Program-made: the position numbers and the translations under genes
Shown: positions 26,294 to 29,800 of the stretch, one piece after another
How positions within the stretch are numbered: position 1 is the first letter of the stretch
Layout: each line of letters opens with the position of its first letter
NCBI GenBank assembly: GCA_938045815.1
Contig: CALIBI010000059.1
Span: 1-47,037, forward strand
Length of the DNA stretch: 47,037 bases
Origin: an uncultured Sulfolobales archaeon
GTDB taxonomy: Archaea > Thermoproteota > Thermoprotei_A > Sulfolobales > NBVN01
Direction: 5' to 3'
The notes under the pieces: generated by a model
What the model was told of the DNA's origin: nothing
The model's input: the letters and a program-made list of their open reading frames with translations, nothing else
Database searches by the model: none

Positions 26294-26989
26294 CTAAATC
26301 ACCTTAACACTAAGCTCTACGTCACCTCTAGTTACCCTATTTACGGAATCTATCACGTCATTCTGCATCCCGGCCGGTATTTCTATCTCCATATATAGTG
26401 AGCCATCACTCAACCACTTCTCAGTCTTAACATCACCTAGCCTCCTCAACTCGCTGTACGCTCTGCCGGCAGTTGCTGGCGGTACTTTAATAGTTATTAG
26501 AGCTTTAGCCACCTTTATTGGGAGAACCTTAGTTAATTCTTTGATTATTCTGGAAGCCTGCTCCTCCACAGTCTTGTAGAGGTCTATCGAGATTCTTGCC
26601 TCCTCCATAGCCTTCTCTATGCGTTGAGGCGGGATAGGAAGCTTAGTTTTAGGATCTATGACTGACTTACTAATATAATTTACTATTAGTCTCTTCTTCT
26701 GTTCTAGCAGCTTCCTCCTTTGCTCAGTAGTTAGTTGTAGTTCCCCTTTCTTTATTATTGTGTCAGCGATTACCATCACGTCCGTTGTACCGAAGTTTTT
26801 CTGAAGTTCTTGCGGGGACGCTTTATCCCCCTTCCTAACGTCTTTATACACTATATCTCCTATTAAGACCTCACTCACGTCTTTTAGCTCTCCTTCCCTG
26901 TATTTGAGGGCTTTGTCAGGGTCTACTAGTATTTCAAACCTGGAACCACTTTTCTCTAGTCTAGCTATCACGTACTCTTTACTACTCAC
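26294..26989 (-). CDS. Ribosome assembly factor SBDS/Sdo1
   Basis: VIARLEKSGSRFEILVDPDKALKYREGELKDVSEVLIGDIVYKDVRKGDKASPQELQKNFGTTD. Confidence 0.95.
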   Translation of the reverse strand: MSSKEYVIARLEKSGSRFEILVDPDKALKYREGELKDVSEVLIGDIVYKDVRKGDKASPQELQKNFGTTDVMVIADTIIKKGELQLTTEQRRKLLEQKKRLIVNYISKSVIDPKTKLPIPPQRIEKAMEEARISIDLYKTVEEQASRIIKELTKVLPIKVAKALITIKVPPATAGRAYSELRRLGDVKTEKWLSDGSLYMEIEIPAGMQNDVIDSVNRVTRGDVELSVKVI

Positions 26990-27717
26990 CTACCAACACC
27001 TGTTTTACGTATGAAGTCAGCAGTCTCTTCGTAGGTTAGCTTCCTGAAGATTCCTTCTTCAAGGGTAACTACACCAACCTCAACTAAGTCTGGAGAGAGG
27101 CCTTCCTCAGTAGAAGCTCTAAGAGCTTTTAAAGCTAGCTCGATAGCGTCTTCTTTCTTCAGTTTCCTGTCGTAGTTTTTCTCTAGGTACTCCATAGCGG
27201 GCTGTTCTCCGGACCCGACAGCCAGAGCTAAGTAAGCAAAATAGTACCCGTTTATTTCGGTCTTAAAAACATGAATACCTTTCTTGTCCCTACCAACAAA
27301 AATTAACGAAACCCCGAAAGGCCTGACACCAGCGTGCTGAGTATAGAGTTGCTTCACGTCACAAACAGACTTAACTACGTACTCTATGTCAGCAGGCTCA
27401 TCATACACGAACCTGTAATTGAGTGCTTCTCTCCTAGCATAATCTATTAGGATCCTGCCGTCAGCAGCTAAACCTGCGAAAGAAGCACCCATGTGTGAGT
27501 CAACCAAGAATATTTTGTTTATGGAATTCAGGTCTATAAGAGTTGATATTCTCCTCTTCTCAGCTACTAAGACGCCGACCTCCTCAGTCCTAAGAGCTAC
27601 TGTAGTCCAACCCTTCCTAACATTCTCAGCAGCATACTCAACCTGGTAAAGCTTACCGTCAGGTGAGAACACCGTTATCGCTCTATCATAGCCGAGAGCT
27701 GGCGGTCCGAAAGCCAT
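26986..27717 (-). CDS. psmA: Proteasome subunit alpha
   Basis: GYDRAITVFSPDGKLYQVEYAAENVRKGWTTVALR. Confidence 0.97.
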   Translation of the reverse strand: MAFGPPALGYDRAITVFSPDGKLYQVEYAAENVRKGWTTVALRTEEVGVLVAEKRRISTLIDLNSINKIFLVDSHMGASFAGLAADGRILIDYARREALNYRFVYDEPADIEYVVKSVCDVKQLYTQHAGVRPFGVSLIFVGRDKKGIHVFKTEINGYYFAYLALAVGSGEQPAMEYLEKNYDRKLKKEDAIELALKALRASTEEGLSPDLVEVGVVTLEEGIFRKLTYEETADFIRKTGVGR

Positions 27718-27885
27718 TTCCTAACCCCTTAACACTTAATTACGTGAAATAATATAAACCTTGACTTAACCAGCAAAAGACACACGAAAACAAGCAATAG
27801 GGACTCTTAGAGAAATCCAATCTACCTCTACTGACTGAATCTTAAGAGGTCTAGAATGGTGGGGGGACGGGTCTGCTGAGGGCGA

Positions 27886-27924
27886 TATGAGCCCCGCGGG
27901 CTAACCTGGCTACCCCACCCCGCT
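27886..27924 (-). tRNA. 5' half of initiator tRNA-Met(CAU), positions 1-37; candidate split (trans-spliced) tRNA
   Basis: Minus-strand AGCGGGG-TG-GGGT-AGCCAGGTTA-GCCC-G-CGGGG-CTCATA: acceptor 5' strand with A1, full D-arm, anticodon 5' strand with the GGG of initiators, U33, CAU, A37. No anticodon 3' strand or T-arm follows. TATA-like CTTAAAAA (27961-27968) lies ~25 bp upstream of the leader. Confidence 0.75.
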
Positions 27925-27963
27925 ACTCTGTCCCCCCATCCATTATTAGTGTTTGTGAGGTTT

Positions 27964-28962
27964 TTAAGTATTGGTTAATTTCTTGATGAGAGACCTAACT
28001 ACCCCCCACTCAGGACTTGCTTCAGGACCCACACCGTACATTTTTGACGCCGCAACCTCAAGATCTAGTTCTGTAGGTATGCCTAGCTTCTTAGATATGC
28101 TCCATGCCTCAGCTAATGATGTAGTTTCCGATATAGCTTGAGCTAACTTGTTTATTTTCATTAGACTCTCGCTCTTAAGAAGAAAGGTAGTAAGGGTTAA
28201 GGCATTTACTTCCATAGTTCTGTTACCCCCTCTTATCTTCCTACTTCCTACGAAGCCCTTAAGTGCTAGGTAGGGTGCTCTACTAGCTTCTGTCTTAACA
28301 CGATCTATTAAATCCTCGTAGAAGCTCGCGTGATGTGACCAAAGACCTATAACACCTACGTATCCTCCAACACTAATCACTTTGCTTATTTTCTGTAGAA
28401 CAAAGTCTTGAGTAAGCTCACCATCAGCTCCTAATGCGGTCACCCCGACGAATCCTCCGACCTTAGCCGTAGCTGCTAGAGTTATTGAGTCTGTTAGAGG
28501 AGACCACAAGTTGTCTTCCCAGCCTTCAGCAAGAATATCACCACCAACATCTAGGTCAATCAGTACATTCTCCCCGTTCCTCACTAACTCCTTAAAACAC
28601 TCGTAAACCCCGCTAACACTCTTCTCAAGAGTTACTGCAGGGATCTCTCTCCTAAGTTTCTCAGCTACATAAGCTGTGTGAGGCTTGAAAGAGTACTCAC
28701 CACGCACCACGTAAGTGTCTCCGCTAACCCAAACACACCTGCTTAACCTAGCATTCCTAACACTAGCTACAGGTATTGGTCCGGGGTAAGGATCCACAAC
28801 CCACCTCTCCCATAAAACTCCTAGGGGAGAACATTCACGAACACCCACGATCTCCTCAAGAACCTTACAGAAAATAAAAGCAGATATTACGTCTCCCCCA
28901 CCACCAGCCCCCACAACCACCACACTTTCGGCCTCACGTAGCTTAGTAACGTAGTTATCCAA
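27964..28962 (-). CDS. DUF1152 family protein
   Basis: ESVVVVGAGGGGDVISAFIFCKVLEE...; 332 aa; DUF1152 pattern. Confidence 0.82.
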   Translation of the reverse strand: MDNYVTKLREAESVVVVGAGGGGDVISAFIFCKVLEEIVGVRECSPLGVLWERWVVDPYPGPIPVASVRNARLSRCVWVSGDTYVVRGEYSFKPHTAYVAEKLRREIPAVTLEKSVSGVYECFKELVRNGENVLIDLDVGGDILAEGWEDNLWSPLTDSITLAATAKVGGFVGVTALGADGELTQDFVLQKISKVISVGGYVGVIGLWSHHASFYEDLIDRVKTEASRAPYLALKGFVGSRKIRGGNRTMEVNALTLTTFLLKSESLMKINKLAQAISETTSLAEAWSISKKLGIPTELDLEVAASKMYGVGPEASPEWGVVRSLIKKLTNT

Positions 28963-29158: not shown

Positions 29159-29800
29159 TTGGTTGTTAGAGCTTCGGATGTGGCTAAGTTGTTGAGTAAG
29201 CCGCCGGAGGGTGATGAAGCGTCAGCAAAGTTTGGTAAGATTTTTGAGGAGGAGTACGCTCTAGCCAACCATATTTACGAGCGGACTTGGTACGTGCACG
29301 TACCTAAGTGGTTTGTTAGGAAGGTCGCGGCTAGATTGATGGCTGAGGGTATTTATAGGCGGGACTTAGTTCTCAAGGCTTACAGAGCTTACGCGGCACT
29401 CCTTAACGCCGGCGTAATCGGTAAGAAACCTAAAACTGTGTTCAGGAATTTAACCGATAATTTGTTTATAGCTGCTCAGCCAGACCTCTATGACGAATCC
29501 ACCGAGACATACTATGAGTTCAAGCTTTACCCAATAAACGATTACGCTAGAAAGCAAGCTGAAGTATTTGCTTGGGTTCTAGAAAAACCTGTAGTGCTTG
29601 TAGGTCTTAAAGAAGACCCGGGAGGCAGCGTGAGTGTGGAGAAAGAAGTTGTTGCTCCCCCTAAAGACTTAAGAATAAACGTGAGCGAATTAAAGAAAAT
29701 CGCGGTGGCAGAGGAATTCTGCGTTGACCTCACAGTTACGGGAGGAACTACGCTAGGTATTTCTGACATGAGGGTTACGGCACGTACGAGGAGTGAATGA
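29159..29800 (+). CDS. Putative PD-(D/E)XK nuclease-fold protein
   Basis: LFIAAQPDLYDESTETYYEFKLYPINDYARKQAEVFAWVL: PD...E-x-K followed by a Q-rich helix, as in RecB/Cas4-like folds. Confidence 0.6.
   Translation: MVVRASDVAKLLSKPPEGDEASAKFGKIFEEEYALANHIYERTWYVHVPKWFVRKVAARLMAEGIYRRDLVLKAYRAYAALLNAGVIGKKPKTVFRNLTDNLFIAAQPDLYDESTETYYEFKLYPINDYARKQAEVFAWVLEKPVVLVGLKEDPGGSVSVEKEVVAPPKDLRINVSELKKIAVAEEFCVDLTVTGGTTLGISDMRVTARTRSE

Follow-up and report, generated by a model that had tools for sequence, protein, structure and literature searches.

The window studied here, a stretch of 47,037 nucleotides from the draft genome of a heat-loving archaeon (G000; 72 contigs, 1.52 Mb, 98% complete), carries the 5' half of a gene for initiator tRNA-Met (tRNA-iMet). 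Positions 27886-27924 of the minus strand read AGCGGGGTGGGGTAGCCAGGTTAGCCCGCGGGGCTCATA, followed by the trailer TCGCCCTCAGCAGACCCGTCCCCCCACC (27858-27885, minus), and were shown by reading and by BLAST (100% match) to represent positions 1-37 (A1 to A37) of tRNA-iMet(CAU). The layout proposed in a preliminary description of the window was confirmed, namely A1, a D stem of 4 bp, CGGGG as the anticodon strand and CUCAUA. This half is kept in four further genomes (G012, G068, G043 and G158), which together with G000 form the genus set. As that description had also noted, no 3' half is present in the window, across which ARAGORN called zero tRNA genes; an Rfam search near the locus returned no match above threshold. 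Comparison of sequences indicates that the locus is very probably one part of a true split tRNA-iMet gene, the halves of which would be trans-spliced into the sole tRNA-iMet of the cell, with a most likely late origin through an intron and subsequent rearrangement.

The 3' half and the tRNA inventory

The missing half was located on another contig of the same draft genome, at C15:1661-1699. A loose tRNA search of all 72 contigs returned 45 matches above the cut-off and two weak ones, and the weak match at C15:1616-1696 was found to hold the leader GGGTCTGCTGAGGGTCGTGTGAG followed by ACCCCGAGGTCGGTGGTTCAAATCCACCCCCCGCTACCA. This 3' half carries the anticodon 3' strand CCCCG, a T-arm and the acceptor strand CCCCGCT, i.e. 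the elements that had been predicted to reside at another locus. When the spliced tRNA-iMet was used as a BLAST query, window positions 27886-27924 aligned with query positions 1-39 and C15:1661-1699 with positions 40-78, in both cases at 100% identity (E = 3.3e-14). Joined at 37/38, the two halves yield a perfect tRNA-iMet(CAU) with the same sequence as the intact gene in the relative Zestosphaera tikiterensis (G087).

The genome contains 46 other complete tRNA genes, all of which were inspected, and every isotype except iMet is represented by an intact gene, including elongator tRNA-Met (C15:20209-20298) and a tRNA-Ile2 (C29:32398-32495) that carries CAU together with a noncanonical intron. 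Neither the 46 catalogued tRNAs nor BLAST with the spliced tRNA-iMet revealed an intact tRNA-iMet in this draft at 98% completeness. Of the two observations that the preliminary description had named as arguing against a split gene, a complete copy elsewhere was not encountered in the draft genome, and the complementary 3' half, the absence of which was the other, is present; almost all of its sequence predictions that were put to the test held.

These data also bear on two alternative explanations. Because integration frequently targets tRNA genes (PMC3218864), the 5' half could represent a fragment or integration scar of a mobile element using tRNA-iMet as its attachment site, with the complete gene elsewhere; such an origin is considered highly improbable, given that the draft genome is devoid of a complete tRNA-iMet, that the half is kept in five species with a promoter and a complementary flank, and that a matching 3' half exists. 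The gene could also be permuted, as is the tRNA-iMet of Thermofilum pendens (PMC3218864), in which case a single transcript would carry the 3' part immediately before the 5' part. However, the 3' part is located on another contig rather than upstream of the 5' half, and the gene is interrupted at 37/38 as opposed to the 59/60 junction in Thermofilum, which makes this arrangement exceedingly improbable.

Several observations on the inventory stand apart from these questions. A low-scoring tRNA match at C42, considered as another half, was rejected, as it corresponds to tRNA-Trp with a long intron. A tRNA-Arg(CCG) gene (L051:1367-1444, on C15) lies ~200 nt from the 3' half on the opposite strand and has two acceptor-stem mismatches (GGGCCCG against CGGGATC). 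Furthermore, two different tRNA-Val(GAC) genes were observed (C70:2264-2336 and C2:13344-13418), and the 4-kb contig C70, which bears one of them, could be a contaminant.

Pairing of the halves and the splice junction

Upstream of the 3' half lies GGGUCUGCUGAGGG, which can pair without mismatch over 14 bp with the trailer of the 5' half; in this trailer, the trans-pairing strand GCCCTCAGCAGACCC (27869-27883, minus) is the complement of the 3'-half leader at C15:1638-1652. Counting G-U pairs, the trailer/leader helix extends to 17 contiguous pairs, a length reached by none of 1000 shuffles, and the duplex was predicted at -40.7 kcal/mol, compared with a shuffled mean of -19.4 kcal/mol. The complementarity in each of the five genus members was likewise matched by none of 1000 shuffles. 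A compensatory change was identified, in that a C-G pair in G000 is replaced by U-A in G012 and G068 with both sides altered, while the helix of G043 and G158 has a different sequence in which the strands still match. The leader that had been anticipated for the 3' half is present with one change in 15, except that the GGGGGGAC strand expected within it is lacking; a GGGGGGAC strand able to pair with the trailer end was found instead in the leader of the 5' half itself (27938-27930).

Cofolding of the two halves predicted a complete cloverleaf in trans, comprising the acceptor, D, anticodon and T arms. Each of the five genus members allows a relaxed bulge-helix-bulge to be drawn, with a U-U mismatch in G000, G012 and G068, and would be cut at UA^U and AG^A. 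Some points weigh against the proposed split gene and its trans-splicing. In its strict form, the bulge-helix-bulge (-70.3 kcal/mol) includes a single U-U mismatch within the central helix; the predicted minimum for G000 (-83.6) pairs the junction almost continuously, with only A38 bulged; and the genome is a 98% complete draft in 72 contigs, in which the separation of the halves by ~21 kb is a lower bound. The same ambiguity at the junction is displayed by functional-looking cis-introns of a related genus, g4. The last six leader bases of the 3' half, UGUGAG, are identical to the 3' end of the seven g4 cis-introns at 37/38, thereby tying the split to a 37/38 intron.

All five genus members have a TATA-like box A ahead of both halves, consistent with a predicted promoter for each. 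In the window, the predicted box A of the 5' half (CTTAAAAACC; 27959-27968, minus), which is conserved throughout the genus set, overlaps the stop codon of the DUF1152-encoding gene and is positioned near -43, compared with -30 to -35 for typical tRNA genes in this genome. The predicted leader, GGATGGGGGGACAGAGT (27925-27941, minus; with a putative transcription start), is ~10 nt longer than those typical of tRNA genes here.

Based on these features, we infer that the 5' half in the window and the 3' half on C15 would each be transcribed from a separate promoter, after which the 5' trailer and the 3' leader would anneal over 14-17 bp, so that the four arms of the cloverleaf (acceptor, D, anticodon and T) would come together in trans. 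The splicing endonuclease would then cleave between positions 37 and 38 at the relaxed bulge-helix-bulge, RtcB would ligate the halves and RNase P would trim the 5' leader, the product representing the only tRNA-iMet of the cell. The genome encodes RtcB, RNase P RNA and a pair of PF01974 splicing-endonuclease proteins; this pair would presumably assemble into an endonuclease of the two-protein type.

Synteny and the history of the split within the genus

Both halves are present in all five genus genomes, in each case split at 37/38, and their arrangement differs between members. G043 and G158 have their halves in tandem on the same strand, 242 and 147 nt apart, respectively, in the gene order psmA< DUF1152> 5'half> 3'half> Endo (AP_endonuc_2-like). 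In G000, G012 and G068, they are located on different contigs, separated by at least ~21, 22 and 37 kb as judged from the contig ends, with the 5' half just after DUF1152 and the 3' half just before Endo. As each half has kept its old neighbour (DUF1152 or the AP-endonuclease-like Endo), the break is placed between the halves. The coordinate 27886 that occurs both in contig C50 of G012 and in the window is a coincidence, the 5' half of G012 being on C11.

The tandem arrangement lends some plausibility to a single gene with a very long cis-intron, in which the separation of the halves would be a binning or assembly artefact, since a read-through transcript in G043 or G158 could be spliced in cis. 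Nevertheless, this explanation appears very unlikely: the halves of G000, G012 and G068 are on different contigs in three separate assemblies, each half has its own predicted promoter, and G144 and G105, two relatives, carry their halves on opposite strands, where cis splicing is impossible.

A late origin of the split is most likely. We infer its direction as follows: a 37/38 intron would have become a spacer containing a promoter that drives the 3' half, so that the halves stood in tandem, as they do in two sister species; a later rearrangement between the halves would have scattered them, each retaining its old neighbour. The 5' half locus can, on one reading, be regarded as the old gene from which the 3' exon was removed.

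Z. tikiterensis was shown to be sister to the genus (support 100) and carries an uninterrupted tRNA-iMet at the orthologous locus (L179:2723-2800), within an in-place inversion. As this is the only uninterrupted tRNA-iMet seen in its family, loss of the interruption in Z. tikiterensis, possibly by reversion, is the simpler though unproven reading. A single inversion common to this species and Z. tikiterensis was rejected, as the breakpoints differ (between the halves in the former, after the whole tRNA in the latter) and two congeners keep the ancestral order. In Z. tikiterensis, the interval separating Endo from DUF1152 was inspected for a remnant of the 3' half, and none was seen.

With regard to neighbouring genes, the DUF1152-encoding gene (27964-28962, minus) lies next to the iMet locus on its upstream side, a position that is conserved, and psmA (proteasome alpha; 26986-27717, minus) is the downstream neighbour of this locus in the window, being divergent from DUF1152 in most relatives. 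An open reading frame (ORF) of 213 aa at 29159-29800 (plus), divergent from DUF1152, has no Pfam match.

Interrupted tRNA-iMet genes across the order and in other archaea

Across three families of the order, 18 pairs of halves with complementary flanks were identified, some with halves on opposite strands. In G144 (L172), G105 (L173) and G154 (L167), tRNA-iMet is split at 30/31 and not at 37/38; the halves of G144 and G105 lie on opposite strands, which excludes cis splicing in these two genomes. Split pairs were also found in two other families, f5 and f9 (L074, L181, L182, L183, L191 and L194), with about 180 to 1300 nt between halves, and other relatives contain tRNA-iMet cis-introns at 30/31, at 37/38, near 39/40 or in the T-loop.

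Pairing of the leader with the sequence immediately past CCA is seen in many relatives, through variable partners (GGAGGG:CCCTCC, GGGAGG:CCTCCC, GGGGGG:CCCCCC and GGCGGGG:CCCCGCC). Within the genus of the window, it is the trailer of the 5' half that ends in the CCCCCC strand, making the clamp internal to this half; in the window, it is formed by TGGGGGGAC in the leader (27930-27938, minus) and its complement GTCCCCCCA at the trailer end (27860-27868, minus). Single cases are weak when compared with shuffles, as the strands are strongly G/C-biased, so that support for the clamp derives from covariation across relatives. Assembly may involve two handshakes, i.e. the anticodon-side helix and the leader:trailer clamp, the latter in trans in some lineages and within the 5' half here. 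Whether tRNA-iMet constitutes a recurrent breakage hotspot in this order, with introns at multiple sites, repeated independent splits in at least three families, scattering through rearrangement between the halves, reversion to an uninterrupted gene (Z. tikiterensis) and two-handshake assembly, is evenly balanced in our assessment.

A split tRNA-iMet gene was previously described in Nanoarchaeum equitans, with the split at 37/38; split tRNA-Asp and tRNA-Lys are known in Desulfurococcales, and a permuted tRNA-iMet in Thermofilum (PMC3218864). The gene studied here resembles tRNA-iMet(CAU) of N. equitans in its 37/38 ligation site, far-apart halves and complementary flanks (PMC3218864, Table 1). 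It differs in its crenarchaeal lineage, the presence of RNase P RNA (Nanoarchaeum is described as lacking RNase P; PMC3491384), the long leader of the 5' half, the recognizable ancestral neighbours of both halves and the tandem stage in congeners. The tRNA-Asp of Aeropyrum pernix and Thermosphaera aggregans is also split at 37/38, with a 14-bp GC-rich stem in A. pernix that is comparable to the helix described above; its halves are adjacent with separate promoters, as in G043 and G158, and were proposed as an intron-to-split intermediate (PMC3218864). These cases concern a different isotype, however, and show adjacent halves only, with no dispersed stage within a genus. Staphylothermus tRNA-Lys is split at 30/31, as in G144, G105 and G154 (PMC3218864), in contrast to the isotype and 37/38 split of the window's gene. 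At the Caldiarchaeum tRNA-Thr locus, intron gain and scattering of tRNA fragments were similarly proposed to be recent (PMC3293823); a mobile element was proposed there, whereas the halves described here adjoin old host genes (the breakpoint was not searched for such an element).

The split of tRNA-iMet is thus of a kind already known from Nanoarchaeum, and the genus-scale series from tandem to dispersed halves is apparently new; no prior report of a split tRNA-iMet in this order was found in the literature outside subscription papers and GtRNAdb-type databases. The age of split tRNAs is under debate, with an origin early in evolution set against recent breakage of intact genes, and a 2015 review favoured early split tRNAs, seeing no obvious path to later new disruption (PMC4390854). 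In the relatives compared here, a single essential tRNA, encoded at the same syntenic locus, takes uninterrupted, cis-intron, tandem-split and dispersed-split forms, which allows the order of events to be reconstructed and renders the late route directly testable.

Two T-loop introns of tRNA-iMet, in genomes of genera other than that of the window, were observed to contain broken ORFs. That of G154 (L167:3370-4080) has a LAGLIDADG_3 match that passes the Pfam cut-off (E = 2.3e-8), and that of G033 (L177:1880-2680) is LAGLIDADG-like with a weak match (E = 0.025); the literature covered describes homing-endonuclease introns of this sort in archaeal rRNA genes and not in tRNA genes. The 3' half of G105 was also shown to bear further introns.
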